Shown piece after piece: positions 9,208-24,197 of a stretch of 64,000 nucleotides of DNA. The notes under the pieces are model-generated. The model searched no databases, was not told the DNA's origin, and worked only from the letters and a program-made list of their open reading frames with translations. This stretch comes from Synechococcus sp. WH 8101 (GTDB lineage: Bacteria; Cyanobacteriota; Cyanobacteriia; PCC-6307; Cyanobiaceae), in NCBI RefSeq assembly GCF_004209775.1, contig NZ_CP035914.1, positions 1,178,001-1,242,000 on the forward strand. The letters are read 5' to 3'. The first letter of the stretch is position 1; every line of letters begins with the position of its first letter. A program made the position numbers and the translations under genes.

Positions 9208-9217
9208 TTATCGAACA
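9202..9217. promoter_or_regulatory. 16-bp palindrome TGTTCG-N4-CGAACA
   Basis: TGTTCG and CGAACA flank four bases (TTAT on the plus strand). A palindrome with the same arms occurs at 9839-9854, and a related one with five-base arms at 11473-11486. This symmetry is typical of an operator for a dimeric regulator. It overlaps module element copy 3. Confidence 0.55.
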
Positions 9218-9909: not shown

Positions 9910-10856
9910 TCAGGCCTGGGAGTGCCACTGGGCCCAGGCGGGCAGCTGCAGGGTCTGGATCTGGGCTGGATAAGCGGGCCACGCGCCGCTGGCCTGAGCA
10001 GCGCAGAAGCGATCGATCGCCAGGGCCCGTTTTTTGTCGCCGTTGGTGAGCATCGCCTCACTGACGCGGTAGAGGCCGATGGCGTGGGGCGGCTGCTTCT
10101 CGATCGCCACAAGCACCACATCCACCGCAAAGGCCGGGAAGGCCTGGGTGGCCAGATGGCGATACCAGCTGGCCTGCAGATCGAGGTGCAGATTGGCGGC
10201 CATGCGGGCGATCTCCTCCGGCGCTGCACTCGTGGTGGTTTTCAGATCGAGGATCGTCAGCTGCTGCTGCTTTTGATCGATCAGCACGCGATCCAGGCGC
10301 CCCTTGAGCTGCAGACCACCTGCGCTTGTGCTGTGGATCACCAGCTCGTTGTGGCGCCGGTACTGGGGCTGCTCGGGGTTGAACCAGGTGCCGGTGAGGG
10401 GATGGCCCAGCAGGCAGGCGGCCATGGCCTCAATGCGCACCAGCTCCTCACGATCGAGGCCGATGCGGGGATCCACTGGGCGACCCTGCGGCCAAAGGCA
10501 GGCCTCCAGTTCAGCCTTGCGCCACTGCTCACCTGTAGGCCGCGGGCAGTAGCGAGGGCCTTGAGCTCGCTGAGGTTTAGGTTCACCTCCAGGTCCTGTC
10601 TGTCTGCATAGCGACTGCAGAAGTCAGCGGGTTCGAGAATGCGGCAGTGGAAGGCCTGGCCAAAGAGCATCGCCCTGGTGGGCTGCAGCGGTTCGGCATC
10701 GGGGCCATAGCGGGCCTGCCAATGGGCGGCTGAACGCAGCAGTTCCCTGGCTTCTGATTGGCTGAGGCCGGGGGCGTTGCGGTAGTCGGCGTCGCTCTGC
10801 TGGTAGGTGATCAGGGCAGAAGTGCCTGGTGCGGCGGTTGCCTGTGGTGATGGCAT
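9910..10856 (-). pseudogene. PD-(D/E)XK exonuclease, frameshifted
   Basis: Two overlapping frames form one protein. The first (from 10856) starts MPSPQATAAPGTSALITYQQ and has SQSEARELLRSAAHW and FGQAFHCRILEP, as in RecE/RecB-type phage exonucleases. The second continues with EQWRKAELEACLWPQGRPVD, then LKGRLDRVL and LTILDLKTT (the D...D-x-K nuclease core) and DLQASWYRHLA. The best join is near 10535, where a one-base change shifts the frame. Such enzymes resect double-stranded ends for recombination. It could be a true mutation, a sequence error or, less likely, programmed frameshifting. Confidence 0.7.
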
Positions 10857-10869: not shown

Positions 10870-11466
10870 TCAGGCGGCAGCGTTGCTGCTGCTGTTGCTG
10901 CCGGTGCGTTGATGGAGGATCAGCTGATCAACGATCGCTGCGGTGACCTGCTCAGCGCCCTGGCCTGCATCGCCCCAGGCTGTTGCATCGGCATAGAGAG
11001 CATCCACGTCGGCGATCAGCAGCGGTGTGGTTTCTGCCGGCGAGGCGATGCCGAGCAGGGTTTCCTGCACCTGCAGCAGCGCCGCATCGCAGGGCAGGGG
11101 GTCAAGCAGTTCATCCACCAGGGCGATCACGGGCTCGACAGTGCCCGCTGCGGTGCCCGTGCTGTTGTTGGTGCCACTGCGGCGGTGCGCCCGCCGAAAC
11201 GGTGTGGCGGCGTTGAGCAGGGCGACGTGGCTGATCTCACCGCGCTCGCGGTTGAGGAAAAGCAACTGATCGATCGTCCGATGCTCGGGGTTGACGTTGA
11301 GTGCCCCCCAGGCCTGGGTGCGTTGCAGACGCTCGATGCCGGCGTCATCAGTGCTGATCAAGAGGGCCGCAGTAGCGATGTCGGGGCAATCGGTGAGCCA
11401 ATCGGCGTCTGCGGGGAGGGAGGTGCTGGCCTGACGAGCGGCCTGGGGGGAACGGGTGCTGGTCAT
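10870..11466 (-). CDS. unknown phage/plasmid-type protein
   Basis: The product has 198 residues, beginning MTSTRSPQAARQASTSLPAD. The middle (LQRTQAWGALNVNPEHRTID) is well formed, and the C-terminal end is Asn/Ser-rich. It lies 13 bases upstream of the exonuclease gene on the same strand, and in phage modules the partner of such an exonuclease is often a single-strand annealing protein; this one is not recognisable as RecT, so that role is only positional. Element copy 5 lies 29 bases before its start. Confidence 0.6.
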   Translation of the reverse strand: MTSTRSPQAARQASTSLPADADWLTDCPDIATAALLISTDDAGIERLQRTQAWGALNVNPEHRTIDQLLFLNRERGEISHVALLNAATPFRRAHRRSGTNNSTGTAAGTVEPVIALVDELLDPLPCDAALLQVQETLLGIASPAETTPLLIADVDALYADATAWGDAGQGAEQVTAAIVDQLILHQRTGSNSSSNAAA

Positions 11467-11577: not shown

Positions 11578-11871
11578 ATGACGAAGGGAAAGACGCAAGC
11601 GCAGGCGGAAGGGCCCGTGCTGGTGCCGGTGAGCGCTGACTGCGAGGGCTGGCCCTACCTGCCACCCGAACTGCTCCGGCCCAGCCGCAGCCGCCAGGTC
11701 TGCATGACCTGCCACTGGTTTCGCCATCACGCTGGCGCGAGCTGCATCACCCTGCTCTGCTGCCAGTTGCATCAGGGCCTGATCGCCCAGGGTGAACACC
11801 TCAGCCGCCGCTGCCACGGCTGGAGCGAAGCGCAGGCGCTGCGGCAGGGCTGGGCACCGGAGGTGGGGTGA
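11578..11871 (+). CDS. Cys-rich hypothetical protein
   Basis: The protein has 97 residues from the ATG at 11578 ([16 protein letters not shown]). The C-terminal half contains [20 protein letters not shown], then CCQLHQGL and RRCHGW. Six Cys and several His residues suggest a zinc-binding fold. It is divergent from the module genes and ends at the junction where glycosylase-derived sequence begins (about 11.88 kb). No family recognised. Confidence 0.6.
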
Positions 11872-11879
11872 GGCGACAC

Positions 11880-12191
11880 CACATTCACGCAGTGGTGAAT
11901 GCCATAGCTCACAACCACATAAAAACGCCCTGGCTCACCGAAGAGCGTTCCGTTGCTGGGGGAGCGGCGGCGATGCCCGTGGCAGGCGGGGTCGTCCTGG
12001 GAATACGCCTCCGTTTCCACAATCACGCCCCACAGCAGCTCACCAGAGGATTGGCGTTTCACCAGCAGGCAACCGATCAGGTCGGGGGCGACCAGCTCGG
12101 CAGGGCGGGCGAAAAAAGCTTGGAGGAGCGCTGGGAAGTCTTGGGTGATGGGCTGGGTGGGTATAGGAGTGGCTTGCAGGTCTTGATTCAT
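11880..12191 (-). pseudogene. 3-methyladenine-DNA glycosylase, 3' truncated
   Basis: From the ATG at 12191 the frame reads [20 protein letters not shown], then [37 protein letters not shown]. This is the N-terminal half of the alkyladenine DNA glycosylase (AAG/MPG) family, with the catalytic Glu of VETEAY and the SYGIHHC.NVV segment. Similarity stops after NVV at about 11.88 kb and unrelated sequence follows, so the enzyme's second half is lost. It is divergent from the first Nif11 precursor gene. Confidence 0.75.
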
Positions 12192-12254
12192 CCTGCTGAC
12201 ATCAAGCTGTGGATGACCCAAAATGGAGGCATCACACCCACTCACAGCGCAGCA

Positions 12255-12494
12255 ATGTCAGAAGAGCAACTCAAAGCCTTCATGGAAGCTGCCAAATCCG
12301 ACGCAGGTCTTCAGGAGAAGCTAAAGGCAGCAAAAGATGGTGATGCCGTCGTAACGATTGCCAAGGCTGCAGGTTTTATTATTTCAGCTGAGGAGTTGAA
12401 GAGGGCTCATTCAGAGGTATCAGAAGAGGAGCTTGATGGTGTGGCTGGTGGTGGTTTAGCTATATTAGGTACACCGTATCTGTTGGATTGTTGA
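12255..12494 (+). CDS. Nif11-type RiPP precursor 1
   Basis: The product has 79 residues: a 66-residue Nif11 leader ([20 protein letters not shown] ... [11 protein letters not shown]) and the core [13 protein letters not shown]. The double-Gly end is where the peptidase domain of a PCAT exporter cuts prochlorosin-like precursors. The core has one Thr and one Cys six residues apart, enough for a single methyllanthionine ring, although nothing shows that the peptide is modified. The ATG at 12255 is fixed by the constant MSEEQL start; the longer open frame is chance. Terminator at 12519-12550. Confidence 0.85.
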
Positions 12495-12518
12495 CGCATC
12501 CTCTACCCTAATACCCCC

Positions 12519-12550
12519 AAAGCCCCTGCAGTCGCAGGGGCTTTTTATTT
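12519..12550 (+). terminator. terminator of precursor 1
   Basis: An AGCCCCTGC / GCAGGGGCT stem with a four-base loop is followed by TTTTTATTT, 25 bases behind the stop codon. All seven precursor genes have a terminator of this AGCCCCT type. Confidence 0.85.
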
Positions 12551-12589
12551 CTTCAATAACCCGCCAGCGCCCATAAATCAGCCTCCAAT

Positions 12590-12799
12590 ACCTGGCACCA
12601 TTGCACTCAACGCAGCCTAACTACAGCCCCATCAAGGCACTCAGTGCATCACAACAAAAACTCAAGGCACACCAAAACCATCCTCAATACTTCTCTCCTA
12701 TTTTCTACCCTTATTCCTTCAACACATTCACCAAATACTTCGCTCCCTATCGCCATCACGGATGCCATTGGCTCGTCTAAATCTCACCGCAATCTGATG
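12590..12799. repeat. long intergenic repeat, copy A
   Basis: About 210 bases behind the terminator of precursor 1 are strongly similar to 13984-14195. Shared landmarks include CCTGGCACCATTGCACTCA, GGCACACCAAAACCATC, CTACCCTTATTCC and TGGCTCG. No convincing gene lies in either copy. It marks a segmental duplication within the array. Confidence 0.75.
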
Positions 12800-12947
12800 C
12801 CACTCGTCAGGGATTTGATTGAGGCGACAATCAAATGCAAAAGGCAGTTGCTGCTGCCCTGACGAGACACGCCTTCTCTTGCTTCTATGAGCACCTCTTG
12901 CCTCCACCAATCGCTTCAGCATCCTTGAGCTCCAAAGCAAGCTGCCG

Positions 12948-13072
12948 ACCACTTGGCGCTTCACCAGCAGGCAGCCGATCAGGGCGGGGGCGACCGCCTG
13001 GGCGGGGCGAAAGAAGAAGGATTGGGGGAGGGCTGAGAAATCTTGGATGGGCGTGGTGGCTATGGGAGTGGC
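12948..13072 (-). pseudogene. second 3-methyladenine-DNA glycosylase fragment
   Basis: The minus-strand translation [20 protein letters not shown], then IGCLLVKRQ and GSLLW, repeats residues of the truncated glycosylase at 11880-12191, but the following VETEAY region is gone. It stands divergent from precursor 2 just as the first fragment stands divergent from precursor 1, so the duplicated unit was glycosylase 5' end plus intergenic region plus precursor gene. Confidence 0.7.
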
Positions 13073-13119
13073 TGATGCGTAGGTCTCAACATCCAGCTGA
13101 CGGCAGCCATGGAATGGAC

Positions 13120-13125
13120 GATAAT
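13120..13125 (+). promoter_or_regulatory. -10 box of precursor 2
   Basis: GATAAT lies 32 bases before the start codon of precursor 2, a normal place for a sigma-70 -10 hexamer. No clear -35 box can be assigned. Confidence 0.45.
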
Positions 13126-13157
13126 GGGGGCTCACCACACCTCGCCCACTCAAAGCG

Positions 13158-13397
13158 ATGTCAGAAGAGCAACTCAAAGCCTTCCTGGAAGCCGTCAAGG
13201 CTGATGCAGGGCTTCAGGAGAAGCTGAAGGCGGCAGGCGATGCGGATGCGGTGGTGGCGATTGCCAAGGCTGCAGGCTTTGTGATTTCTGCTGAGGAGCT
13301 GAAGAAATCTCAGGCAGAGATTTCTGAAGAGGAGCTGGAAGGCGTGGCTGGTGGGACTGCAGTGTGTACTTTTGGTTGTGTAACTACTAATAGGTGA
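13158..13397 (+). CDS. Nif11-type RiPP precursor 2
   Basis: The product has 79 residues: a 66-residue leader ending [11 protein letters not shown], and the core [13 protein letters not shown]. The core has two Cys and four Thr, so two methyllanthionine rings are possible if a LanM-type enzyme acts in trans; a disulfide is an alternative. The leader is nearly identical to those of its neighbours while the core shares nothing with them, the signature of prochlorosin-like families. Glycosylase debris lies upstream, a -10 box at 13120 and a terminator at 13430-13462. Confidence 0.9.
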
Positions 13398-13429
13398 AGA
13401 GGACATTATAAATAAGAAAAATCTTGCTT

Positions 13430-13462
13430 AAGCTCCTGTCTGCGTAGGAGCTTTTTATTTTT
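13430..13462 (+). terminator. terminator of precursor 2
   Basis: An AGCTCCT / AGGAGCT stem is followed by TTTTTATTTTTT. The stem bases differ from the AGCCCCT form of the other copies by a compensated change (C-G to T-A), so pairing is kept. Confidence 0.8.
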
Positions 13463-13588
13463 TCAACTGCCCACGAAGACCCCTCATTCAGCCTCCAATA
13501 CCTGGCACAATTTCCGTCAATCAAGCAACAGTATTACGTCAGCAATGGCGGAGTTCTTTATTGAACAGATAAATGCTGTCCGTTTTGC

Positions 13589-13594
13589 TATGAT
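13589..13594 (+). promoter_or_regulatory. -10 box of precursor 3
   Basis: TATGAT preceded by TTTGC (extended -10-like) lies 23 bases before the start codon of precursor 3. Confidence 0.5.
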
Positions 13595-13617
13595 GTGACT
13601 GTTGAAGCTCAAACCCA

Positions 13618-13860
13618 ATGTCAGAAGAGCAACTCAATGCGTTTCTGGAAGCAGTTAAGTCTGATGCAGGTCTTAAGGAGAAGATGAAGGCGGCTTCCGA
13701 TCCGGATGCTGTAGTGGAGATTGCCAAGGCTGCGGGCTATGCCATTTCTGTTGATGAGTTGAAAAAATCTCAGGCAGAGATTTCGGACGAGGAGCTGGAA
13801 GGCGTGGCTGGGGGAACCGGCACTGGTGTGACGGGGGGCGGCTGTGGTGGGGTTTTTTAG
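13618..13860 (+). CDS. Nif11-type RiPP precursor 3
   Basis: The product has 80 residues: leader MSEEQLNAFLEAVKSDAGLK ... [11 protein letters not shown], and the Gly/Thr-rich core TGTGVTGGGCGGVF with a single Cys and three Thr before it. One ring is possible. The leader is the most diverged of the seven (KEKMKAASDPDAVVEI, SVDEL). Its upstream region (13491-13562) is duplicated before precursor 5. Terminator at 13901-13930. Confidence 0.9.
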   Translation: MSEEQLNAFLEAVKSDAGLKEKMKAASDPDAVVEIAKAAGYAISVDELKKSQAEISDEELEGVAGGTGTGVTGGGCGGVF

Positions 13861-13900
13861 AAAATATCATAGAAAGAAATATCCTGCTACCTAATCCAGT

Positions 13901-13930
13901 CAAGCCCCTGTCTCCACAGGGGCTTTTTAT
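13901..13930 (+). terminator. terminator of precursor 3, with duplicated 3' arm
   Basis: An AAGCCCCTGT / ACAGGGGCTT stem is followed by TTTTATT. Directly behind it comes a second GGGGGCTTTTTATTTT, a partial copy of the terminator's 3' arm and T-run, a trace of slippage or duplication. Confidence 0.85.
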
Positions 13931-13983
13931 TCGGGGGCTTTTTATTTTCTTCATCCACCCTCAACCAGCACCAAACGGCTTCC

Positions 13984-14195
13984 GATGCCTGGCACCATTG
14001 CACTCAGCGCAGCCTGACTACAGACCTAATGAGGCACTGAGCACCAAATCGAAAAATCCAGGGCACACCAAAACCATCTTCAATATTTCTCTCCCTACTT
14101 CTACCCTTATTCCCTCAAAACATTCACCAACAACTTCGCTCTCCATCGCCATCTCTGATTCCGTTGGCTCGCCGAAATCTCACCGCCACCTGATG
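13984..14195. repeat. long intergenic repeat, copy B
   Basis: This is the partner of 12590-12799, strongly similar over about 210 bases and preceding precursor 4. Neither strand holds a convincing open frame. Confidence 0.75.
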
Positions 14196-14343
14196 TAGAC
14201 GCCTACTTAGAGCAGAGGCAGAAGTACATGGGCAGTCGTGGTGGTTCTGAACGTGGTTACTGAGTCATTCTCAACACATCCTGCTGACACCAGGCTGTGA
14301 ATGGGCGACACTGGAAGTCATCACACCTCACCGCGTCAACCCA

Positions 14344-14571
14344 ATGTCAGAAGAGCAACTCAAAGCCTTCCTGGAAGCCGTCAAGGCTGATGCAGGGCTT
14401 CAGGAGAAGCTGAATGCAGCAAAAGATGCTGATGTCGTAGTAGCGATTGCCAAGGCTGCAGGCTTTGTGATTTCTGCTGAGGAGCTGAAGAAAGCTCAGG
14501 TGGCAGAGATTTCCGAAGAAGAGCTTGAAGGCGTGGCTGGTGGTGGCTGGCGTGACTTGGAACTCCTGTGA
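14344..14571 (+). CDS. Nif11-type RiPP precursor 4 (short core)
   Basis: The product has 75 residues. The leader has one extra residue ([19 protein letters not shown]) and the core is only GWRDLELL. With no Cys, Ser or Thr this core cannot form a lanthionine or a disulfide. It may be a decayed copy, end early through a frameshift, or be exported unmodified. The upstream region (CATCCTGCTGACACCAGGCT) matches that of precursor 1. Terminator at 14663-14694. Confidence 0.85.
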   Translation: MSEEQLKAFLEAVKADAGLQEKLNAAKDADVVVAIAKAAGFVISAEELKKAQVAEISEEELEGVAGGGWRDLELL

Positions 14572-14662
14572 GTTTTGCTTTGTGCCTGTGGAAGTATGAA
14601 ATTAGAATAAATTGTATATATATCTAATAGATACTGCTGCAACCCTTTCAGCCTAATCCTAA

Positions 14663-14694
14663 AAAGCCCCTGCGACTGCAGGGGCTTTTTATTT
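14663..14694 (+). terminator. terminator of precursor 4
   Basis: An AAGCCCCTGC / GCAGGGGCTT stem with a four-base loop and TTTTTATTT, about 95 bases behind the stop codon. Confidence 0.85.
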
Positions 14695-14854
14695 CTTCAG
14701 CCACCCTCAACCAGCCCCAAACGGCTTCCGATACCTGGCACAATTTTTTCGTCAATTAAGCAACAGTAGTGCGTCAGCAATGGCGGGGTTTTTTGTTGCC
14801 TGCTGCCAACGTCGTCAACGGTTGCTAAAAACGGGCTGTAGCTCCACACGTTCC

Positions 14855-15139
14855 ATGTCAGAAGAGCAACTCAAAGCCTTCCTAGAAGCCGTCAAGGCGG
14901 ATGCTGGTCTTCAGGAGAAGTTGATGGAGGCAGCTGATGCCGATGCTGTGGTGGAGATTGCTAAGGCTGTAGGCTTTGTGATTTCAGCTGAGGAGTTGAA
15001 GAAGGCTCAGGCAGAACTTTCGGAAGGGGAGCTGGAAGGCGTGGCTGGGGGTGTAGGGCCTTGGGGAACCCAAGCTGTTTGTGGTTTTTATGCTAACGGT
15101 ATTCTTGTTGGCGATGTGACTCCTAAACCCAAAACGTAA
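14855..15139 (+). CDS. Nif11-type RiPP precursor 5 (long core)
   Basis: The product has 94 residues: a 66-residue leader (variants [24 protein letters not shown]) and a 28-residue core, the longest of the array. The core starts VGPWGTQAVCGFYANG and ends DVTPKPKT. One Cys with a Thr four residues before it allows one ring; the Pro/Lys tail looks linear. The ATG at 14855 is set by the constant MSEEQL start. The 65 bases around 14733-14797 repeat the upstream region of precursor 3. Terminator at 15154-15183. Confidence 0.9.
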   Translation: MSEEQLKAFLEAVKADAGLQEKLMEAADADAVVEIAKAVGFVISAEELKKAQAELSEGELEGVAGGVGPWGTQAVCGFYANGILVGDVTPKPKT

Positions 15140-15153
15140 TCCCTAATCCCGTC

Positions 15154-15183
15154 AAGCCCCTGTCGCTACAAGGGGTTTTTATT
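15154..15183 (+). terminator. terminator of precursor 5
   Basis: An AGCCCCT / AGGGGTT stem (one G-T pair) is followed by TTTTTATTT, 15 bases behind the stop codon. Confidence 0.8.
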
Positions 15184-15266
15184 TCTTCAATATCCAACCA
15201 AGACCCTTCATTTAGTCGCCAATTTCTGGCGCCTTCGTCATCAACGCTTCCTGAAGACAGATAAGC

Positions 15267-15272
15267 TATAAT
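15267..15272 (+). promoter_or_regulatory. -10 box of precursor 6
   Basis: A consensus TATAAT inside AGATAAGCTATAATGG, 29 bases before the start codon. The same AGATA-GCTATA-T-GG context precedes precursor 7. Confidence 0.65.
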
Positions 15273-15301
15273 GGAATTTGACACCTCGCCCTCTCAAAGC
15301 C

Positions 15302-15580
15302 ATGTCAGATGAACAACTCAAGGCTTTCCTGAAAGCCGTCAAGGCTGATGCAGGTCTTCAGGAGAAGCTAAAAGCGGCAGGTGATGCCGATGCCGTGGTG
15401 GCGATTGCTAAGACTGCTGGCTTTGGGATTTCTGTTGAAGAGCTGAAGAGAGCTGAGGCAGAGATTTCAGAAGAGGAGTTGGAAGGTGTGGCTGGTGGTG
15501 AATGCAATGAGACCTACAATTACGTTCATCGAGGCGGAAACTTTCTCGCGACCTGGGCCATGAAATCTGTCTGTCATTAG
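15302..15580 (+). CDS. Nif11-type RiPP precursor 6
   Basis: The product has 92 residues: leader [20 protein letters not shown] ... [11 protein letters not shown], and a 26-residue core starting ECNETYNYVHRGG and ending ATWAMKSVCH. A Cys sits at each end, with Thr near the first and Ser-Val before the last, so a large ring, small rings or a disulfide are possible. Its upstream block is shared with precursor 7 and carries a perfect TATAAT. Terminator at 15604-15634. Confidence 0.9.
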   Translation: MSDEQLKAFLKAVKADAGLQEKLKAAGDADAVVAIAKTAGFGISVEELKRAEAEISEEELEGVAGGECNETYNYVHRGGNFLATWAMKSVCH

Positions 15581-15603
15581 AAGACGTGTTATAAAGATGC
15601 CAA

Positions 15604-15634
15604 GAGCCCCTGTAGCGGCAGGGGCGTTTCATTT
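15604..15634 (+). terminator. terminator of precursor 6
   Basis: A GCCCCTG / CAGGGGC stem with a six-base loop is followed by a weaker tail, GTTTCATTT. Termination may be less complete than for the other copies. Confidence 0.7.
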
Positions 15635-15716
15635 CTTCAATAGCCCACAAAGACCCTTCATTCAGCCACCAATACCTGGCACCATTATCATCAACGCAAC
15701 CTGAAGAAAGATAGGC

Positions 15717-15722
15717 TATACT
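15717..15722 (+). promoter_or_regulatory. -10 box of precursor 7
   Basis: TATACT in AGATAGGCTATACTGG, 30 bases before the start codon, in a block copied from or to the upstream region of precursor 6. Confidence 0.6.
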
Positions 15723-15752
15723 GGAGGTTTATCTCCTGGTCCTTTCGAGGTA

Positions 15753-15992
15753 ATGTCAGAAGAGCAACTCAAGGCTTTCCTGAATGCCGTGAAGGCTGAT
15801 GCGGGGCTACAGAAGCAGCTGAAAGCAGCAGGTGATGACGATGCCGTGGTGGCGATTGCCAAGGCTGCGGGCTTTGTCATTTCTGTTGATGAGTTGAGAA
15901 GGGCTCAGGCAGAAGTTTCTGAGGAGGAGCTTGAAGGCGTGGCTGGCGGTTGTAGGTATGTTCCAAAGTGGCTACTTGAGCAGGGATGCTGA
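15753..15992 (+). CDS. Nif11-type RiPP precursor 7
   Basis: The product has 79 residues: leader [20 protein letters not shown] ... [11 protein letters not shown], and the core CRYVPKWLLEQGC. Cys at both ends and no Ser or Thr: the core cannot form lanthionine on its own residues, but end-to-end disulfide cyclisation is plausible. It is the last copy of the array. Terminator at 16006-16038. Confidence 0.9.
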   Translation: MSEEQLKAFLNAVKADAGLQKQLKAAGDDDAVVAIAKAAGFVISVDELRRAQAEVSEEELEGVAGGCRYVPKWLLEQGC

Positions 15993-16924: not shown

Positions 16925-17701
16925 TTATCGCCTCTCTCCAGGCACTCGGGCCACATACATACCGTAACCAAAAAAGGATTTGTACTTCCTGTATAGATCG
17001 ATTTCTGCCTGTTCGCCAGCCACCACTGCACGCGCATCATCCGACTGGTTGTTTCGCTCGAGGTAGGCCTCAAAGCGATCCTGCATCGGCTTGTAGTAGT
17101 GATCGAGCCAGCAGTTTTCTGGGAGGATAAAATAGGCATCTGGGATGTAACCAAGTCGTTCGAGAACTTCAAACTTCTCAGATGCCAAGCGAATCTCTGG
17201 GTATTCGGATTCCCAGTGTTGGGTGAGTTCCGCGGGTCGCTCGCGCGTCAGCCATGTGATCTCGGAAGCCACGAGATAACCGCCTGGTTTGAGACAGCGC
17301 TTCCAGGCGCCTGCTCCATTCTCAAAGCCGATGTTGTAAATTGCACCCTCCGACCAAATTGCGTCAAGCGATTGGTCTTCGAATGGCAGATCATCAATGC
17401 TGCAGCAGATGGTGTCAATCTGATCGTCGATCCCGCGTTCGCTCGAGCGAGCATTGAGAGCGTCCAGAAAAGGTTGCAAGAAATCAACAGCAAGCACTTT
17501 GGCGTTGAGTTCTTCCGCGAGCACCATCGCTGAGGCGCCGGTGCCGCAGCCAAGATCTGCAATCTGCAGGGCTTTCTCTCGGTTCAGTCCCGTCAGCTGC
17601 AGGGCTTTTTTGGTGCAAGCGTCGCTTCCCGGTCCCTGACGCTCGCTGTCCACATGCAGGTCGATCAATAGGCTGAGATCATCCAAGGTGGCATCAGTCA
17701 C
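16925..17701 (-). CDS. SAM-dependent methyltransferase
   Basis: The product has 258 residues with a GTG start at 17701. Class I methyltransferase motifs are in order: IADLGCGTGASAMVLAE (motif I, SAM binding), VLAVDFLQPFLDAL (acidic residue for the ribose), CSIDDLPFEDQSLDAIWSEG (motifs II/III) and LKPGGYLVASEITW. The last third is an insert-rich substrate region. The UbiE/methyltransferase-11 type acts on small molecules or peptides. It lies 0.9 kb from the RiPP array in opposite orientation, so a role in peptide tailoring is possible but unsupported. Confidence 0.8.
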   Translation of the reverse strand: MTDATLDDLSLLIDLHVDSERQGPGSDACTKKALQLTGLNREKALQIADLGCGTGASAMVLAEELNAKVLAVDFLQPFLDALNARSSERGIDDQIDTICCSIDDLPFEDQSLDAIWSEGAIYNIGFENGAGAWKRCLKPGGYLVASEITWLTRERPAELTQHWESEYPEIRLASEKFEVLERLGYIPDAYFILPENCWLDHYYKPMQDRFEAYLERNNQSDDARAVVAGEQAEIDLYRKYKSFFGYGMYVARVPGERR

Positions 17702-17991: not shown

Positions 17992-18408
17992 TTAGAACGG
18001 CGCACCGGCGCCAGTGCGGCTCCCCGTGTGGGCTGAGCCTCCGGTCTCAGCCGTAGAGGTAGTGGCTGCCAACGCTTGCCGTTCGCTTTTGCTGTCGAGG
18101 AAGGTGAGGTTGGCCCGGGTCACCTTGAGGCTGCGGCGCTTCTCGCCATTGCTGTTTCGGTACTCCTGCCAGATCGCCTGGCCCTGCACTGCCACGCGGC
18201 TGCCTTTGTGGAGCCGATCGACGCAGTGCTCAGCGGCCTTGCCCCACACCTCCACGTCATAGAACTGCCCCGGTGCGTCCTCTTCTCCCTTGCGGGGCCT
18301 GACGTAGGCGCGATCAGCGACGCAGAAGCAGCAGACCTGGGAGCCGGAGTCAAAGCTTCGCAGGCTTGGCGCCTGAACGAGCATGCCGGCAAGAGCGATG
18401 GAAGCCAT
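17992..18408 (-). CDS. single-stranded DNA-binding protein of the module
   Basis: The product has 138 residues from the ATG at 18408 (MASIALAGMLVQAPSLRSFD). The OB-fold pattern is clear: GQFYDVEVWGKAAEHCVDRL, then HKGSRVAVQGQAIWQEYRNS and KRRSLKVTRANLTFLDS. The C-terminal tail ends GAGAPF: the terminal Pro-Phe is kept but the acidic residues of a usual SSB tip are absent, which may change partner binding. It is the last gene of the minus-strand group with the sigma factor, primase and helicase. Confidence 0.85.
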   Translation of the reverse strand: MASIALAGMLVQAPSLRSFDSGSQVCCFCVADRAYVRPRKGEEDAPGQFYDVEVWGKAAEHCVDRLHKGSRVAVQGQAIWQEYRNSNGEKRRSLKVTRANLTFLDSKSERQALAATTSTAETGGSAHTGSRTGAGAPF

Positions 18409-18451
18409 AGGCAACAAGTGGAATCAGGAGGCGTATTGAGCAGGTGGTCGA

Positions 18452-19342
18452 TCAGACCTCTGACAGGATATGGGTCAAGGAAACATCGGCCCGCTGCAGC
18501 TGGCTCTGGATCCGCTCCATCAGCCGGTGGTACTGGCAGCGGATCGCTGCGCTGGTGACGCCATAAGTCCTGCCCAGTTCCCGGAAGGTGACCGGCACCG
18601 TGTAGAGCTGCCGTTTGCAGACGATCGCCCGTTCCCTGGCGCTGAGACCAAGGCCATCAAACACCGCCTGCAGGACCGTGCCGATCCGCTCGGCGCGCTG
18701 GTCCTGCTGCTCGTCATAGTCCTGATGCGGGTCCGCCAGGAACTGGAGCAACTCCTGGCCTTCCTCTGACTGGACCTGTTGGTTGGCGCTCATGCAGTCG
18801 GTGCTGCGGAACGCCTGCAAGTACTGCCGCACGGTGTCCAGGGGCTTCTGCAGGCTGTTGGCCACCTCCTCCAGGACGATCGGGCCTCCAGTGCCGTTGC
18901 GTGCTGCGGAGCGGGCAGCGAGCTTGCGGGCGGTGTAAGCAACGCTGTGGCAATCGACCGGCACCCGGATCATGCGATGACGATCGCGCAGGAATTCGCC
19001 GATCTCCTTGGCGATCCACTGGGCGGCGTAGGTGGAGAAGCGATAGCCCTTCTGGTGCTGGTATTTGAGGGCGGCGCTGCGCAGGCCGATGCTGCCTTCC
19101 TGGAGGCAATCGGCAGCGAGGGGTCCGCGCAGGCTGATCCAGGAGAAGCGCTTGCGCATCACGGTGACGATCAGGCGCAGGTTGGCGCGGATCACCCGAT
19201 CGAGAGCCCGCTGCCCAGCGCGTTTGGACGCTTTGCCGCTGCTGCTGCTCTGGATGGTGCGGCTGAGGATGATCAGCTCCTCGTCGGTGAGACGCGGTTC
19301 GCGTCCAGCGGCCTGGAGCCAGCAGGTGACGGTGTCAAGCAT
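18452..19342 (-). CDS. sigma-70 family sigma factor
   Basis: The product has 296 residues from the ATG at 19342 (MLDTVTCWLQAAGREPRLTD). It has a region 1.2-like start, region 2 (LDRVIRANLRLIVTVMRKRF, LQEGSIGLRSAALKYQHQKG, YRFSTYAAQWIAKEI), region 3 (PIVLEEVANSLQKPL) and region 4 (LSARERAIVCKRQL, FRELGRTYGVTSAAIRCQYH). It is a complete group 2/3 type factor of cyanobacterial style. Its start overlaps the preceding small gene by eight bases. It probably directs transcription of module genes; the target promoters are unknown. Confidence 0.85.
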   Translation of the reverse strand: MLDTVTCWLQAAGREPRLTDEELIILSRTIQSSSSGKASKRAGQRALDRVIRANLRLIVTVMRKRFSWISLRGPLAADCLQEGSIGLRSAALKYQHQKGYRFSTYAAQWIAKEIGEFLRDRHRMIRVPVDCHSVAYTARKLAARSAARNGTGGPIVLEEVANSLQKPLDTVRQYLQAFRSTDCMSANQQVQSEEGQELLQFLADPHQDYDEQQDQRAERIGTVLQAVFDGLGLSARERAIVCKRQLYTVPVTFRELGRTYGVTSAAIRCQYHRLMERIQSQLQRADVSLTHILSEV

Positions 19343-19685
19343 GGATCTGGCCTCCGCAGCTGGTGTGGGTTGATTGGTTGGTCTGTTGGGCGGTTGTCGT
19401 TGCGGCTTTGGCCTCGTTGTTGAGAGCTGCGCGGATCTGCTCGGCGATGCGCCGCCGCAGGCAGGCATGGTCCAGGCGATGGGCCTCAGGGCGCTGCTGC
19501 CCGGCCTGCGGGCCTGAGGCTTGCCGCTGTGGCTGCCGTTGCTGCTCGCGGTGCTGGAGCAGGGCCAGCTGGATGTCATCGCAGCGGGGCAGGGCGGGAT
19601 TGATGCGCATGCCCTTGCTGTTGATGCGGATGGCGCTGTTGCCGCAGACGCGCCGGCCCTGATGGTCCGATTGGATGCGCTGCAT
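19335..19685 (-). CDS. small basic protein preceding the sigma factor
   Basis: The product has 116 residues from the ATG at 19685 (MQRIQSDHQGRRVCGNSAIR), chosen for the AGGAGG ribosome binding site about 10 bases upstream. The N-terminal 40 residues look folded; the rest is Gln/Arg-rich. Eight-base overlap with the sigma gene implies translational coupling, so it could be a sigma regulator (anti-sigma or chaperone). I recognise no family. Confidence 0.55.
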   Translation of the reverse strand: MQRIQSDHQGRRVCGNSAIRINSKGMRINPALPRCDDIQLALLQHREQQRQPQRQASGPQAGQQRPEAHRLDHACLRRRIAEQIRAALNNEAKAATTTAQQTNQSTHTSCGGQIHA

Positions 19686-19786
19686 GATTGAGACCTCCTG
19701 GTGATGCGAACTGGAACAGGCGTGACCACAAGCTGGCCTCGTTGCGCTGAGGCTGTCAACGTCCATACGAAAGCTTCATGGTTTGC

Positions 19787-21478
19787 TTATGAATCAGAAG
19801 TCGAACAGGGTGCGGTGGTTTGGGCCTCTGCTCCCTCCGGTTCAGGTCCGCGCTTGAGCAGCTGCAGGGCGCCTTCCAGTTCCCCCAGCGGATTGGCCCG
19901 GATCACCCGCAGCACCTCCTCAGGTGGCCTGCAGAGCGCAGCGATCGCCTCGGCCAGGGCGCGGCGGTTCTGGCCGATCAGGGGCTGAATCAGGCCCATC
20001 AGCAGCCCGCGCAGGCCTGTGCCGCCACCACCCATCGCCTCGACGGTCTCGATCACCTGCTGGATCTCCGCCAGCAGCGGTTCGCGGTAGCGGATCGCTT
20101 GCAGGGCGGCCCGTTGGCTGGGGTCGTGGATGTAAAGGCGCAGGGCGCGTCGCTCGGCCCAGCGCTGGTGATCAATGCCGCCACGGCTTGAGCCGGTGAG
20201 ACGCGATCCCGCTGGGTTGTCGCTCCGGTTGGCTTCGGCTGTTGCCGGCAGGCCTGCCAGTTGTCGCGAGGTGGCAGGTGCTGGAGCGGGCGGGATCGCC
20301 TCCAGGCCGGTGCTGTTGAGATCGCTGCTCAGCAGGGCGCTGGCGCGGCGCAGCACGTAGGCGCGCAGGCCACCGGCGGGCAGCTGCTTGAGCAGCGCCT
20401 GGAGCTCCTGCTCGCAGCGCTGGATCGTGGCTGGATCGCCCAGATCGAGCCCCGCACTGGCGCGGGTGAGGCGGTGGTCGATCCAGCTGATCGCGCGGTC
20501 CAGCAGCGCCTGGAACTGATCGGCCAGTTCGGCGGGATCCTGCCCCGCCGGCAGGCTGAGGATGCGCAGATCCAGCCCGCTGCTGAGCACCTGGGGTTGG
20601 AGGGCCGCAATGGCGCGATCGGCGGCACTGGCGCCAGCGGCATCGCCGTCAAAACAGAGCAGCAGCTGCTCGATGCGGCAGTGCTGCTGCAACAGCTGGA
20701 GCATCGAGGCTGTGAGGTTGGAGCCCGACACCGCCAGCACGTTGCTGAGTCCCGTCTGGGCGAGGCGGATCACATCGAACTGTCCCTCCACCAGCACCGC
20801 CTGCCTGCTGCGGTTGATCGCCTCGCGGGCGCGATCGAGGCCAAAGAGCAGCTGGGATTTCTGGTAAAGCAGGTCATTGCGGGAATTGCGGTACTTGGGT
20901 GCTCCCCCCGGCTGGTCGTTCTGGTGGTTGAGCAAGCGACCGGAGAAGGCGACGGTGCGGCCCTGGGGATCGTTGAGCGGCACCATCACCCGCTCACCGT
21001 TCCAGCCCAGCTGCCAGTCCCGAATCGTCTGTGGCGTCAGACCACGCCCCTGCAGGTAGGCCAGGGCAGCGGCGCCCTCGCTGCGCCAGAGCCGTTCGGC
21101 AAAGGTCTGGCGCTGGGTTTGCCTGAGGGCATACAGCCGTTTGCGTTCGGCCCTCTCCTGCTGCAGGCGATCCCGGTCTGCCGCATCGATCGGCTCAGCT
21201 GTGATGCCGAGGCGCTCGGCGAGTTGGAGCACCGCCTCCTGGAAGCTCAGCCCCTGCTGCTCCATCCACCAGCCGATCGCGTCGGTGCCGCGGGCGCAGA
21301 CATGGCAGTAGGCGAGGTTCTTGCTGGGGTTGAGGCTGAGGCTGGGCCGGCGGTCCTCATGCCAGGGGCAGCGGGTGAGGAACTCACCGCCCACCCGCCT
21401 GAGGCTGGCGGGCTCAAAGAGATCGACGATCTGCAGCCGTTGCCTGACCTGCTCGATCACCGTTGGATGCAGCCGCAT
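19787..21478 (-). CDS. DnaG-type primase
   Basis: The product has 563 residues from the ATG at 21478, which overlaps the helicase stop codon (TGATG). The N-terminal zinc finger is FLTRCPWHEDRRPSLSLNP ... AYCHVCARG (the C-x2-H...C-x2-C pattern of the CHC2 family). Middle: WQLGWNGERVMVPLNDPQGR and VAFSGR. TOPRIM domain: AVLVEGQFDVIRL (catalytic Glu) and LLLCFDGDAAGASA (D.D). It makes RNA primers for the lagging strand. The C-terminal 200 residues are diverged and probably bind the adjacent helicase. This is an element-borne copy, shorter and more diverged than a typical cyanobacterial DnaG. Confidence 0.9.
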   Translation of the reverse strand: MRLHPTVIEQVRQRLQIVDLFEPASLRRVGGEFLTRCPWHEDRRPSLSLNPSKNLAYCHVCARGTDAIGWWMEQQGLSFQEAVLQLAERLGITAEPIDAADRDRLQQERAERKRLYALRQTQRQTFAERLWRSEGAAALAYLQGRGLTPQTIRDWQLGWNGERVMVPLNDPQGRTVAFSGRLLNHQNDQPGGAPKYRNSRNDLLYQKSQLLFGLDRAREAINRSRQAVLVEGQFDVIRLAQTGLSNVLAVSGSNLTASMLQLLQQHCRIEQLLLCFDGDAAGASAADRAIAALQPQVLSSGLDLRILSLPAGQDPAELADQFQALLDRAISWIDHRLTRASAGLDLGDPATIQRCEQELQALLKQLPAGGLRAYVLRRASALLSSDLNSTGLEAIPPAPAPATSRQLAGLPATAEANRSDNPAGSRLTGSSRGGIDHQRWAERRALRLYIHDPSQRAALQAIRYREPLLAEIQQVIETVEAMGGGGTGLRGLLMGLIQPLIGQNRRALAEAIAALCRPPEEVLRVIRANPLGELEGALQLLKRGPEPEGAEAQTTAPCSTSDS

Positions 21479-23109
21479 CAGCAATGGGCCTCGCTGGTGA
21501 TGGCGTTGTATTCGCGGTTCACCTGCAGGATCGAGGTCTTGCAGTGGATGAAGTCATCGCCGACGCGCTGACCATTGCGGCACTTGGCGTGGGTGAGCTG
21601 CAGCACCCCCGGATTGAAGCTTTCGCTGTTGCGCTCGAACTCCAGCAGCCAGACGGCGGTAGCGAGCTGGGCGATCGCATCGGTGCCGTTGATGTGATCC
21701 AGCCTGGGTGCATCGCTGAGGCAGGCGTCGCGGTTGAGTTGGGCCATCAGGAACAGATCCAGCTGGCAGGCCTTGGCGGCCTGGTAGAGCAGCAGGATGC
21801 GGGCCTCCATCTCCTGGCTGCGGTTGATGTAGCCCTTGCTGGGCCTGAGGGCATGGAAGTGATCGATGAACACCGCTGAGAGCCCGGGGTTGCGGGCCTT
21901 GGCGGCATGCATCGCATCGATCATGTCCTCCGCGGTGGCATGGAAGAGGGCCTTGGAGTGGAAATCACCGATGACGCCGGCGTCCCGCTCCTGTTGCCAT
22001 TGGCTGAGCATCGCCTCAAAGCCGCTGGCCACCTCCCGGCGCCGGCCCCGGCCCTCGAGGATCCAGGCGCGGCAGGCGAGATGGTCGCGGCGGTAGGCGT
22101 AATGGCTGAGGGCGCGGGCGGTGATCTCGCGACTGCTGAGTTCACTGGAGAGAAAGAGCACCCCGGCGCCATGGAGGGCCAGGCCCATGGCAGCCGCCAT
22201 GCCGACGGTGGTTTTGCCGACACCGGTGCGGGCGCCGATGACGTTGAGCTTGCCGGTGTCGCTCGGTTGGACACCGCCCTGCAGGTCCATGTCGAGGGCG
22301 GCGATGCCGGTGGAGATCGCCGAGCAGCGCTCCTGGGTCATCGCCTCCAGCAGGGTCTCGCGCTCGCTGGAGAAGCACTCCAGTTCGATGCTCTGGCCCA
22401 GGCGCCCGGCGACCAGGGCCCTGGCGTTCTCGATCGCGTTGAGCATGGTCTGGGCGACCTGCTCGATGCAGCGATCGCGGCGCAGGGCCAGCTCCAGCTC
22501 AGAGCCGGCGGCCTTGAGGAGGGTGCGGGCACGCGTGGACTGGAGCAGCTCGATCGCGATCTGCAGATCATTGGCGATCAGGCCTGAGGCATCGCGCGCC
22601 AGCGCGGTGATGTCAGCGCTGATCTGCTGCAGAGAGCCCTTGATCTGACCACGCTCGAGCCGCAGGCGGGTGGATTCGATCAGGGTGTGGCCATTGAGCG
22701 TGCGCAGATCGCGCTGGCCCTGGAAGATCGCCTCGATTTCACTGGAGAGCTGCTGGTGCAGAGGCAGCGACCAGAGGCTGTCTGGGACGCTCTGATCGGG
22801 CCTGAGGCCGAGTGCAGCGCGAAAGCGTGCCCAGATCGGGCTGTTGTCCTGCTCGCCGTGGAGCGCAAAGCCGAGGATGAGGCGCTCCTGTTCCAGGCTG
22901 CACTCGCCGCTGCTGGCGTTGCTGGGGTCGTCCTTGGGGGCGGAGTTGCTGGGGTCGAGGTTGCTGAGCAGCGCGTCGTCGGCGGCGGGTTCCGCCTCAG
23001 CCGCGAGCTGGAGCTGCCCGTCCTGGATCACGACCGTGCCAGCGGCAAGGGCGGCATCGACCGCACCGAGCACCTGCTCGGGAAGGCTGGTGGCGGTGAG
23101 TGTGTCCAT
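21478..23109 (-). CDS. DnaB-type replicative helicase
   Basis: The product has 543 residues. The N-terminal domain (EQERLILGFALHGEQ, then RQLSSEIEAIF-like helices) matches DnaB N-terminal region style. The RecA-fold C-terminal domain has Walker A GARTGVGKTTVGMA, LFLSSELSSREITARAL, Walker B AVFIDHFHALRP and LFLMAQLNRDA (sensor). It unwinds the fork and loads the primase. No intein is visible. It overlaps the upstream replication protein and the downstream primase by one to three bases, so these three form one operon driven from the element at 24177-24197. Confidence 0.9.
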   Translation of the reverse strand: MDTLTATSLPEQVLGAVDAALAAGTVVIQDGQLQLAAEAEPAADDALLSNLDPSNSAPKDDPSNASSGECSLEQERLILGFALHGEQDNSPIWARFRAALGLRPDQSVPDSLWSLPLHQQLSSEIEAIFQGQRDLRTLNGHTLIESTRLRLERGQIKGSLQQISADITALARDASGLIANDLQIAIELLQSTRARTLLKAAGSELELALRRDRCIEQVAQTMLNAIENARALVAGRLGQSIELECFSSERETLLEAMTQERCSAISTGIAALDMDLQGGVQPSDTGKLNVIGARTGVGKTTVGMAAAMGLALHGAGVLFLSSELSSREITARALSHYAYRRDHLACRAWILEGRGRRREVASGFEAMLSQWQQERDAGVIGDFHSKALFHATAEDMIDAMHAAKARNPGLSAVFIDHFHALRPSKGYINRSQEMEARILLLYQAAKACQLDLFLMAQLNRDACLSDAPRLDHINGTDAIAQLATAVWLLEFERNSESFNPGVLQLTHAKCRNGQRVGDDFIHCKTSILQVNREYNAITSEAHC

Positions 23110-24155
23110 CAGGCCTGCACCCCGCTGGCTGCGTAGAAGCGACGGGCGTCCTCACGGGCGGCCAGGCGTTCGGCCTTGCTGGGGAAGCCATGCCGGGGCC
23201 TGAGGTCACCGGTGAGCGGTTCCGGCGGGAAGAAGTCCGGGTGCTGGGGACCGGCGAAGGCCGGGATGCTGTTGATCGCTGCAGCCAGACGACTGGCATG
23301 GGTGCTGGTGGGGTTGGTCTTGCTGGAGGGTTCCGGGGCTTCTTCTGCCAGGGCATGGAAGTGGCCCTTGGGGGTCAGGCCGGTGCCGATCAGCTGCTCG
23401 AAGGCGATCGCCTTGCCGCTCCACCAGCGGTTGGCCTTGGCGCCGGCCATCACCTCGGGGAGGAGGGCGAGCACCTGGCGAAGGCCGCCGAGGGCACGGA
23501 TCGAGCGCTGCCGGGAGGGGGAGAGGTGCTTGAGCGGCCGCCAGGCATCGGGCTTGAGGCGGTTCCAGGAGTCGATCAGCTGCTGCTGCAGATCGGCCGT
23601 GTCCGGTTCCGGTGCCGGATCAGCTGGCGGGTCAGGTGGCGGATCAGCTGCGCTTGCGGCAGCGGTTGGCTTGGATGGCTCCTCCCCCCTGCTGCTGGTG
23701 GTGACGGGAGAGGGGCTGCTCTTTTCTTCTTCTCTGTTTGGCTGTTGTTTTTGTTTTATATGTGCACCAGGAGAGGGGTCAATATCGACCCCTGAGCGGG
23801 TTGGGTTGCGCTCCCGGAGCGGGGTTGGAGCGCGATCCCTTTGCGGGGTGAGGACGGAAGGGGAGTCCTCCCGCGGCGGGATGCCCTTGAGGAGGATCTC
23901 GGTGCCCTTGCCCTCGATCGTGCGCAATTCGATCCAGCCGAGCCGGGCGAGATTGGCGAGCTGGCGATCGATCGTCTTGATGTTGGTGCAGCGATCGAGG
24001 GCGAGCTGGCGTTTGCTGGTGGAGAGCTGCACCCGGGCCCCGGCTTTGTAGGCCAGGGCGCCATAGAGATCCAGCAGCAGCAAGGCGCCTGGATAGTTGG
24101 TATCGGCGAGCTGACAGACGTGAGCGAGCTGGGAGTTGGAGAAGTTGATCAGCAT
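23109..24155 (-). CDS. winged-helix replication initiator-like protein
   Basis: The product has 348 residues from the ATG at 24155 (MLINFSNSQLAHVCQLADTN). The N-terminal 110 residues look like a winged helix: ALLLLDLYGALAYKAGARVQ, TSKRQLALDRCTNIKTIDRQ, LANLARLGWIELRTIEGKGT. A long Pro/Ser-rich linker follows, then a helical C-terminal part (WNRLKPDAWRPLKHLSPSRQ, AIAFEQLIGTG). Its place ahead of helicase and primase suggests an origin-binding initiator or helicase loader. Phage and plasmid initiators have this layout; no specific family is assigned. Confidence 0.65.
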   Translation of the reverse strand: MLINFSNSQLAHVCQLADTNYPGALLLLDLYGALAYKAGARVQLSTSKRQLALDRCTNIKTIDRQLANLARLGWIELRTIEGKGTEILLKGIPPREDSPSVLTPQRDRAPTPLRERNPTRSGVDIDPSPGAHIKQKQQPNREEEKSSPSPVTTSSRGEEPSKPTAAASAADPPPDPPADPAPEPDTADLQQQLIDSWNRLKPDAWRPLKHLSPSRQRSIRALGGLRQVLALLPEVMAGAKANRWWSGKAIAFEQLIGTGLTPKGHFHALAEEAPEPSSKTNPTSTHASRLAAAINSIPAFAGPQHPDFFPPEPLTGDLRPRHGFPSKAERLAAREDARRFYAASGVQA

Positions 24156-24176
24156 GGCTCTTGATGCGGACTCGCA

Positions 24177-24197
24177 CAAGGTATGGGGGAGCGTTCC
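24177..24197 (-). promoter_or_regulatory. module element copy 6 (GGAAC-N7-CATACCTTG)
   Basis: This copy lies 21 bases before the start codon of the replication operon. Its first half is GGAAC rather than CGAAC and its second is CATACCTTG, with the seven-base spacing kept. It is the most diverged copy. Confidence 0.6.

Follow-up and report, generated by a model that had tools for sequence, protein, structure and literature searches.

The array at 12255-15992 of the window (the whole stretch of 64,000 nucleotides that was analysed) consists of seven ProcA/SyncA-type precursor genes. We estimate at about 0.9 the probability that these genes are served by a distant LanM and exporter and have spread as cassettes, one group of which lies in a decayed P-SS2-like module. 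The array belongs to a known system, that of the prochlorosins/synechococsins, in which precursors are usually scattered, and it is ordinary as a system. Its position inside a decayed P-SS2-like module, together with the birthmark left by a 3-methyladenine DNA glycosylase (MPG) gene, seems to be unpublished, and these traces of copying are less ordinary than the system itself. Our literature searches found no published account linking prochlorosins with MPG or with a prophage. Neither the phage-module setting nor the MPG fragments figure in the sequence-only reading.

Precursor genes and their predicted distant maturation system

The seven open reading frames, all on the + strand, are confirmed at the coordinates given by the sequence-only reading:

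12255..12494, +, ProcA-type precursor 1; core of 13 residues; TIGR03798 80.8 bits, Nif11
13158..13397, +, ProcA-type precursor 2; core of 13 residues; TIGR03798 84.3 bits
13618..13860, +, ProcA-type precursor 3; core TGTGVTGGGCGGVF, 14 residues; TIGR03798 84.7 bits
14344..14571, +, ProcA-type precursor 4; core GWRDLELL, 8 residues, possibly in a shifted frame; TIGR03798 82.2 bits
14855..15139, +, ProcA-type precursor 5; core VGPWGTQAVCGFYANGILVGDVTPKPKT, 28 residues; TIGR03798 80.1 bits
15302..15580, +, ProcA-type precursor 6; core ECNETYNYVHRGGNFLATWAMKSVCH, 26 residues; TIGR03798 match
15753..15992, +, ProcA-type precursor 7; core CRYVPKWLLEQGC, 13 residues, without Ser/Thr; TIGR03798 82.7 bits

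All seven proteins pass both TIGR03798 (Nif11-like leader RiPP precursor; 79.5-84.7 bits, cut-off 32.3) and PF07862 (Nif11; 58.6-68.9 bits, cut-off 23.8). The leaders have 66 residues (67 in gene 4) with 35 columns invariant among them, and every one ends in GVAGG, which bears out the claim of a constant Nif11 leader. Median leader dN/dS in the genome is 0.20 (197 usable of 210 pairs among the 21 leaders with exactly 66 codons), indicating conservation beyond chance. The claim that the cores share nothing also holds, since mean core identity over the 325 pairs formed by the genome's 26 precursors is 0.322, compared with 0.321 after shuffling. Cores exceed the shuffled 99th percentile in 3 of these pairs and leader DNA in all 325.

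The genome encodes a single ProcM-like LanM (C1:1671023-1674208; 1062 aa) with a CCG motif, approximately 480 kb from the array. It contains the domains DUF4135 (6.9e-101) and LANC_like (1.9e-34), and C919, H920 and C965-C966-G967 are invariant across 16 aligned LanMs. Two genes away lies the exporter, a 733-aa protein with a C39 domain (6.4e-29) and an ABC domain, followed by an HlyD-like gene (21.4 bits, below the cut-off of 22.2) and a TolC-like gene (OEP 3.1e-49); a second ABC transporter is found in the same neighbourhood. The only LanC-like match of the genome and its three C39 matches all lie outside the window. The statement that the 64 kb hold no LanM or peptidase-exporter is thus literally true, and the proposed genome-wide search for the two gives a positive answer, with the C39 peptidase-exporter adjacent to the LanM. 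The presence of one ProcM-like LanM supports the prochlorosin reading of one enzyme acting on many substrates. The hint that the missing nearby maturase is remarkable does not stand, because scattered precursors and one promiscuous enzyme are described as the norm for the prochlorosin family (PMC10783134).

Of the 26 ProcA-type leaders in this genome, 7 belong to the window, 17 surround the LanM at 1656-1685 kb and 2 are single. LanM is found in 25 of 350 genomes of the family. At a threshold of E<=1e-12, ProcA-type leaders occur in 24 of these 25 (median 14) and in 7 of 19 genomes of the genus that lack LanM, with at most 4 each; the exception is G072, whose LanM (41% identity) is not accompanied by any ProcA-type leader at this threshold. 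By analogy with the family, the LanM would recognise the conserved leader, dehydrate Ser and Thr residues of the core and close (methyl)lanthionine rings with core Cys residues. The C39 peptidase-exporter would then cut after GG and export the core through an envelope channel formed by the HlyD-like and TolC-like proteins.

Both Cys and Ser/Thr are present in 22 of the 26 cores of the genome and in 5 of the 7 in the window; window cores 4 and 7 fail. As they stand, 4 of the 26 could not form a lanthionine ring, three for want of Cys and one for want of Ser/Thr. The remarks of the sequence-only reading on core chemistry (two possible methyllanthionine rings in core 2, only terminal Cys in core 7, nothing to cyclise by thioether in core 4) are correct at the level of sequence, but the cores of the genome as a whole mostly carry both kinds of residue. 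Judged by its composition, core 7 cannot become a lanthionine since it contains neither Ser nor Thr. With the frame moved on by one base, core 4 becomes AGVTWNSCEFCFVPVEV, with 17 residues including two Cys, one Ser and one Thr. This frame is suggestive only; because of it, core 4 may be a shifted or decayed core, and the idea of a designed linear peptide or a new chemistry is weakened. No relative sharing the core was found. In the same list of frames, a few other alternative core frames also contain several Cys.

Core 7, having no Ser/Thr, could hint that a maturase other than LanM (YcaO or another) acts on the Nif11 leaders, and a YcaO-containing syncA cluster has been published for Synechococcus KORDI-100 (PMC10783134). 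However, YcaO cyclodehydratase, a feature of YcaO/LAP Nif11 clusters, has 0 matches in the genome, and a LanM with a ProcM-like motif is present. We therefore reject a YcaO maturase and consider any maturase other than LanM very improbable.

A decayed P-SS2-like module around the array

The following genes and features lie around the array:

9910..10856, -, exonuclease VIII-like gene, split over two overlapping frames; P-SS2 gp123 counterpart
10870..11466, -, P-SS2 gp122 counterpart; 32% over 59 aa, E 1.9e-6
11578..11871, +, gene X, a small ORF without Pfam match; protein 93% identical to that of the ORF upstream of the lone precursor at C1:1035079
16925..17701, -, SAM methyltransferase; 78% identical homologue in a second phage-like module
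17992..18417, -, single-strand binding protein (SSB); PF00436 4e-21; no tblastn match to P-SS2 at E 0.01
18452..19759, -, phage-type sigma factor; P-SS2 gp113, 29%
19787..21484, -, phage-type DNA primase; P-SS2 gp109, 43%
21478..23109, -, DnaB-like helicase; P-SS2 gp108, 54%
23109..24179, -, P-SS2 gp107 counterpart; 28% over 79 aa, E 1.4e-8
24388..25131, +, P-SS2 gp103 counterpart; 48%
28690..28732, no strand, attachment-site-like stretch; P-SS2 90823-90866, 97.7% over 44 columns

Eight window genes (nine ORFs) match P-SS2 60000-107530, and seven are in P-SS2 order, the exception being a sigma factor at 9208. As in the P-SS2 replication module, gp103, gp107, helicase, primase, sigma factor, (SSB) and, beyond the array, gp122 and exonuclease VIII follow one another. 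In contrast to P-SS2, the exonuclease VIII gene is broken, and the methyltransferase, gene X and seven host-type precursors stand between SSB and the gp122 counterpart. A tblastx comparison of P-SS2 20000-107530 with the window and its flanks gave no integrase match, and the same P-SS2 interval gave one short virion-side match in the window (gp060-like, 5339-5521) and a lysozyme-like gp098 match at C1:1029 kb. From this gene content, the module appears to be a decayed P-SS2-like prophage that is not complete.

The stretch at 28690-28732 stands at the end predicted from P-SS2 gene order, beyond the gp103 counterpart. Its P-SS2 match overlaps the putative attachment site of the phage, which has been placed at 90,836-90,888 (PMC2784084). 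The stretch resembles the 3' half of tRNA-Met; it is mostly tRNA-Met sequence, and only one copy is seen in the stretches compared. Neither the window nor any of the five 19-kb stretches L226-L230 contains a complete tRNA gene. Mapping of the island ends against G181 aligned the left flank alone.

Among the 31 genomes of the genus, 27 match the primase, and phage-type copies occur in this genome only, which has a second one at C1:992266 (50% identical); we take the matches at 36-39% in the 26 others for host DnaG. Searches with short peptide patterns confirmed no relative of the phage primase, either in public genomes or in viral contigs, and gene X was not found in phages. P-SS2-like relic prophages in Synechococcus RS9917 are similarly described as decayed gene sets in marine Synechococcus genomic islands, by tRNA-Met or tRNA-Ser (PMC2784084). 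They differ in that other P-SS2-like genes and many transposases are described for them, and the part of that account dealing with them makes no mention of lanthipeptide genes.

The location of the array between the SSB gene and the gp122 counterpart, and the attachment-site-like stretch at the expected end, would agree with delivery of the precursors by a P-SS2-like phage as cargo (morons); the host on which P-SS2 was isolated, Prochlorococcus MIT9313, produces prochlorosins. However, precursor 2 is unmatched in 50,697 phage records and no relative was confirmed in viral contigs (two short peptide patterns only), and on these grounds we reject phage cargo as quite improbable. Furthermore, no ProcA-type leader occurs in the sister module (C1 981-994 kb), the GC content of the array is 0.504 as against 0.646 and 0.664 in the phage module, MPG sequence is present in the cassette flanks, and the cassettes have matches in the LanM cluster. 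We favour instead a history in which one group of cassettes came to lie inside the decayed prophage module in Synechococcus sp. WH 8101.

Cassettes, a twin and MPG fragments

The flanks of the precursors contain the following features:

11874..12131, -, truncated 5' part of an MPG gene, divergent to precursor 1; PF02245 1.5e-26
12196..12224, +, promoter-like site of precursor 1, CTGACA-17-CAAAAT
12519..12544, +, terminator of precursor 1
12929..13036, -, shorter MPG 5' fragment, divergent to precursor 2; tblastn 1.2e-10; gap 121 bp
13097..13125, +, promoter-like site of precursor 2, CTGACG-17-GATAAT
13430..13453, +, terminator of precursor 2
13902..13925, +, terminator of precursor 3
14660..14691, +, terminator of precursor 4
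15171..15704, +, unit with gene 6; 96% identical over 535 columns to C1:1661496-1660962 of the same genome
15606..15625, +, terminator of precursor 6

A generic promoter scan gave no excess over shuffles (3 found, 2.6 expected), and no Rfam element reaches its gathering score in window positions 1-30000. The gene 6 protein is encoded a second time, identically, in the LanM cluster (C1:1661086-1661364, -). Identity between the twins sets in within the T-run that follows the preceding terminator and tapers off in the 3' repeat. The flanks are not uniformly conserved, since fixed 120-bp upstream and 150-bp downstream regions exceed shuffled controls in only 41 and 61 of 325 pairs, respectively. 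Each gene forms its own cassette of upstream region, leader, core and, usually, terminator and 3' repeat. Such cassettes appear to have spread as whole copied units, probably through recombination in conserved flanks, with the core replaced or scrambled as the copies spread.

Going by the title of a bioRxiv manuscript by Laurenceau et al., lanthipeptide genes are reportedly associated with a TnpA-REP mobile element. The tie between procA genes and a mobile element is a shared feature, but no Y1 transposase match exists in this genome, and a TnpA-REP transposase is rejected as the mover.

The seven genes could also be leftover copies silently decaying in a dead prophage, unexpressed and unmodified, while those near the LanM do the work. 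The split exonuclease VIII gene of the surrounding module, the unfitness of cores 4 and 7 for lanthionine and the distance to the LanM are all compatible with such decay. Nevertheless, every leader is intact from start to GG, leader dN/dS is low throughout the genome, most window cores keep Cys plus Ser/Thr, the gene 6 protein has its twin in the LanM cluster and the terminators persist; we consider silent decay unlikely.

The longer MPG fragment shares 85% amino acid identity with the intact MPG of the genome and is separated by a gap of 123 bp from the start of precursor 1; the shorter one is absent from the Pfam matches. Next to each of the six MPG fragments of the genome runs a divergent procA, at a distance of 81-95 bp from the beginning of the MPG query. 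In the loci examined, 21 of the 28 fragments that were judged have a divergent procA within 250 bp and 7 do not; of the 38 intact MPGs, 9 do and 29, the genome's own among them, do not. These counts make the MPG-procA pair look like an old source locus for cassette copying. Over 380 columns covering MPG and the spacer, the region upstream of gene 1 shows 87% identity with an intact MPG-procA pair in G246. Several cassettes probably descend from a divergent MPG-procA pair; they still keep the cut-off MPG 5' end.

The patchy occurrence of procA at intact MPGs is also what insertion would give if the MPG upstream spacer were a hotspot for procA and not the source of the copies. A hotspot leaves unexplained the MPG 5' fragments that stand beside procA elsewhere with much the same spacing, and the fragments whose best match is the MPG of their own genome (here the three longest of six and no others; in G246 both of those tested). 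We find it rather unlikely. Opinion is evenly balanced on the larger proposal that the divergent MPG-procA pair is the ancestral source of marine picocyanobacterial prochlorosin genes, from which repeated parallel copying-out tears off pieces of MPG, with prophage relics as landing sites.

Significance for the prochlorosin family

As in prochlorosins and synechococsins (ProcA/SyncA, with the class II synthetase ProcM/SyncM), Nif11 leaders with a terminal GG precede hypervariable cores, the genome has numerous precursors, often at a great distance from its one CCG-type LanM, and C39 exporter, HlyD-like and TolC-like genes stand beside that LanM. The system differs in genomic setting: 7 of 26 precursors lie in a phage-derived module and several cassettes have MPG 5' fragments beside them.

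Prochlorosins are a leading case of natural combinatorial peptide biosynthesis. The array supplies seven candidate substrates for the ProcM-like enzyme. The twin cassette shows where a copied unit begins and ends. With the MPG stubs, copy events can be put in order, since the stubs provide an orientation and intact MPG serves as an outgroup; together, twin and stubs make copying versus core replacement testable from existing genomes. If the MPG-procA pair is indeed the source locus, the stubs would be birthmarks from which one could trace how a combinatorial peptide family spread, in what order, and how its cores were replaced.

Precursors, synthetase and exporter

All seven ORFs proposed from sequence alone were recovered at window 12255–15992 of Synechococcus sp. 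WH 8101, whose genome is a single contig (C1) of 2,630,292 bases with the window at C1:1178001–1242000, and each of the seven scores well above the cut-off of the Nif11-like leader family. Their leaders comprise 66–67 residues with a C-terminal GVAGG. Among the 21 leaders that are exactly 66 codons long, median dN/dS is 0.20 (197 of 210 pairs usable); the leaders are thus under constraint. The cores are unrelated, as the sequence-only reading had stated: mean pairwise identity is 0.322 versus 0.321 for shuffled cores (325 pairs, the genome's 26 precursors).

Both Cys and Ser/Thr are present in 22 of the 26 cores. Three have no Cys (gene 4 of the array and two near the lanthipeptide synthetase) and one, that of gene 7, has no Ser/Thr. 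The gene 7 core therefore cannot give a lanthionine product; it may form a disulfide or stay an unmodified peptide. Read one base later, gene 4 encodes AGVTWNSCEFCFVPVEV, a plausible core, so its frame may have shifted. Precursors at 1656668–1656943 and 1661544–1661810 of the chromosome have clearly related cores (RIYGIDVD-VGR-ASGP); in one of the pair the cleavage site is missing its second Gly and there is no Cys, possibly a step of core decay.

The lack of a maturase near the array, which had been noted as surprising, is an effect of the window edge, since one ProcM-like lanthipeptide synthetase (LanM; 1062 residues, DUF4135 and LANC_like domains) is encoded elsewhere in the genome. Its cysteine ligands and CCG motif are invariant among 16 aligned LanMs, CCG being described as characteristic of the ProcM-like group (PMC10783134). 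Adjoining LanM are an ABC transporter, a C39 peptidase-exporter, a HlyD-like protein (21.4 bits, slightly below its cut-off, 22.2) and a channel protein of the outer membrane; two more C39 genes lie elsewhere, and YcaO has no match in the genome. The genome holds 38 Nif11-leader matches (32 over cut-off), 26 of them ProcA-type: 7 in the window, 17 around LanM and 2 single. Precursors of this family are reported to be sometimes scattered and modified by one promiscuous enzyme (PMC10783134), and the WH 8101 system adds one more member to the prochlorosin family.

LanM is present in 25 of 350 genomes of the bacterial family. With a leader model built from WH 8101's own 26 leaders (E ≤ 1e-12), ProcA-type leaders were found in 24 of these 25 (median 14); of the 19 genomes in the genus that lack LanM, 7 have such leaders, never more than 4 each. 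Two relatives, G289 and G271, have at least 140 and at least 96 leaders, and G289 has two LanMs. G169, which the tool groups into the genus of WH 8101, shares a LanM stretch of 3150 identical bases with Synechococcus sp. UW105; WH 8101 thus belongs to the picocyanobacteria of the marine Synechococcus group.

The LanM-transporter operon (L036 23–10578; G246:C1:409833–420403) is 88–89% identical between WH 8101 and a relative, G246, whereas their intact 3-methyladenine-DNA-glycosylase genes (MPG) are 80% identical, which hints at a possible transfer of the operon between lineages. The alphaproteobacterium Roseovarius lutimaris carries a ProcM-like LanM (L189 10001–13165; L192) with one Nif11-type ORF nearby. 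It falls into one group with the LanMs of G071 and G029 (Prochlorococcus sp. MIT 0701), with 100/99 support. The gene was probably acquired horizontally from picocyanobacteria.

The precursor cassette

Aligned upstream regions of many precursors show a TGAC box and, 17 bases on, an AT-rich box ahead of the ATG. An NTGAC hexamer with a partner box ending 29–33 nt before the start was counted in 13 of 26 genes; a generic scan for promoters found 3 in the array, no excess over the 2.6 expected. Terminator-like sites number 15 in the array, more than the 5.2 expected (sd 2.2); GC-rich ones follow genes 1, 2, 3, 4 and 6, and a repeat around CCAATACCTGGCACCATT comes after many of the terminators. 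Only 41 of 325 pairs for a fixed upstream 120 bp, and 61 of 325 for a fixed downstream 150 bp, exceed the shuffled 99th percentile; the flanks are therefore a family with variants and are not constant.

The protein of gene 6 is encoded a second time, 468 kb away, by a twin within the LanM cluster. The match (535 columns, 96%) starts in the T-run after the terminator of the preceding, unrelated gene and fades in the 3′ repeat, and so delimits one copied unit.

Upstream of two precursor loci lies gene X, a small ORF with no Pfam match, whose copies (window 11578–11871 and C1:1034729–1035013) are 93% identical to each other. At one locus an MPG stub stands between gene X and the precursor; no stub was found at the other.

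MPG fragments upstream of precursors

The one intact MPG of WH 8101, at C1:400895, has no precursor gene (procA) beside it. Truncated 5′ copies number five by Pfam (genome-wide) and six by tblastn (loci examined); all six of the latter are divergent and upstream of a ProcA gene, with 81–95 bp between that gene and the point where the MPG query begins. Two lie in the window.

MPG fragments in the window
11874–12131, MPG fragment
12929–13036, MPG fragment

The three longest fragments match the genome's own MPG best (89.5–92.7% DNA identity), the three short ones match that of G181 or G141, and both tested G246 fragments match G246's MPG. At window gene 1, MPG plus the spacer to the leader start is 87% identical to an intact MPG–procA pair in G246.

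Of 44 genomes, 11 of the 25 with LanM and 1 of the 19 without have at least two MPG matches. In the loci examined, a divergent procA no more than 250 bp away accompanies 9 of 38 intact MPGs (G239, G246, G253, G169, G029, G075, G271, G231 and G289), G029 being identified as MIT 0701 by its identical LanM; G239 and G075 have no LanM. The same arrangement is found for 21 of 28 judged fragments, a count that leaves out seven rows at contig ends and sets aside three that are second pieces or have their 5′ end missing.

Nine fragments from WH 8101 and G246 show, by eye, about six junctions with differing break points. One is common to window gene 1 and C1:1685 kb, perhaps also to a fragment in G246, and another to window gene 2 and G246. 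The simplest reading is that MPG was truncated several times, in some cases before the two strains split; a few junctions may have been rearranged later.

The phage module around the array

The array is flanked by minus-strand genes: those for helicase, primase, sigma factor and SSB (the last recognized by Pfam only) on one side and, on the other, a gp122-like gene and a disrupted one for exonuclease VIII. Their order matches cyanophage P-SS2 (primase, 43% over 96%), and the gap between SSB and the gp122 counterpart holds the array together with gene X and a methyltransferase. GC content is 0.504 in the array versus 0.646 and 0.664 in the module. Compared with P-SS2 20000–107530, the window has no integrase match and, from the virion side, only a short gp060-like match. 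A second P-SS2-like module (C1:981189–993924) has a methyltransferase homologue, 78% identical to that of the window, and no ProcA-type leader. Among 31 genomes of the genus, phage-type primases occur in WH 8101 only; decayed P-SS2-like gene sets are reported from islands of Synechococcus RS9917 (PMC2784084). The module explains the neighbourhood of the precursor genes, not their origin.

Beyond the gp103 counterpart, window 28690–28732 matches P-SS2 90823–90866 (97.7% over 44 columns), overlapping the phage's putative attachment site, given as 90,836–90,888 (53 bp, of which 36 bp match tRNA-Met; PMC2784084). Since gp103 of P-SS2 lies just past that site, this stretch lies where one end of such a prophage would be expected, and may mark such an end. 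The match is largely tRNA sequence (a partial tRNA-Met-like stretch), the window holds no complete tRNA and no second copy was seen in the loci examined. Further along, at 29572–31507, a fatty-acid-desaturase-family gene adjoins an orange carotenoid protein gene.

Neither the MPG birthmarks nor the phage landing site was found described in the open-licence literature searched; they offer a means of working out the sequence in which cassettes were copied.
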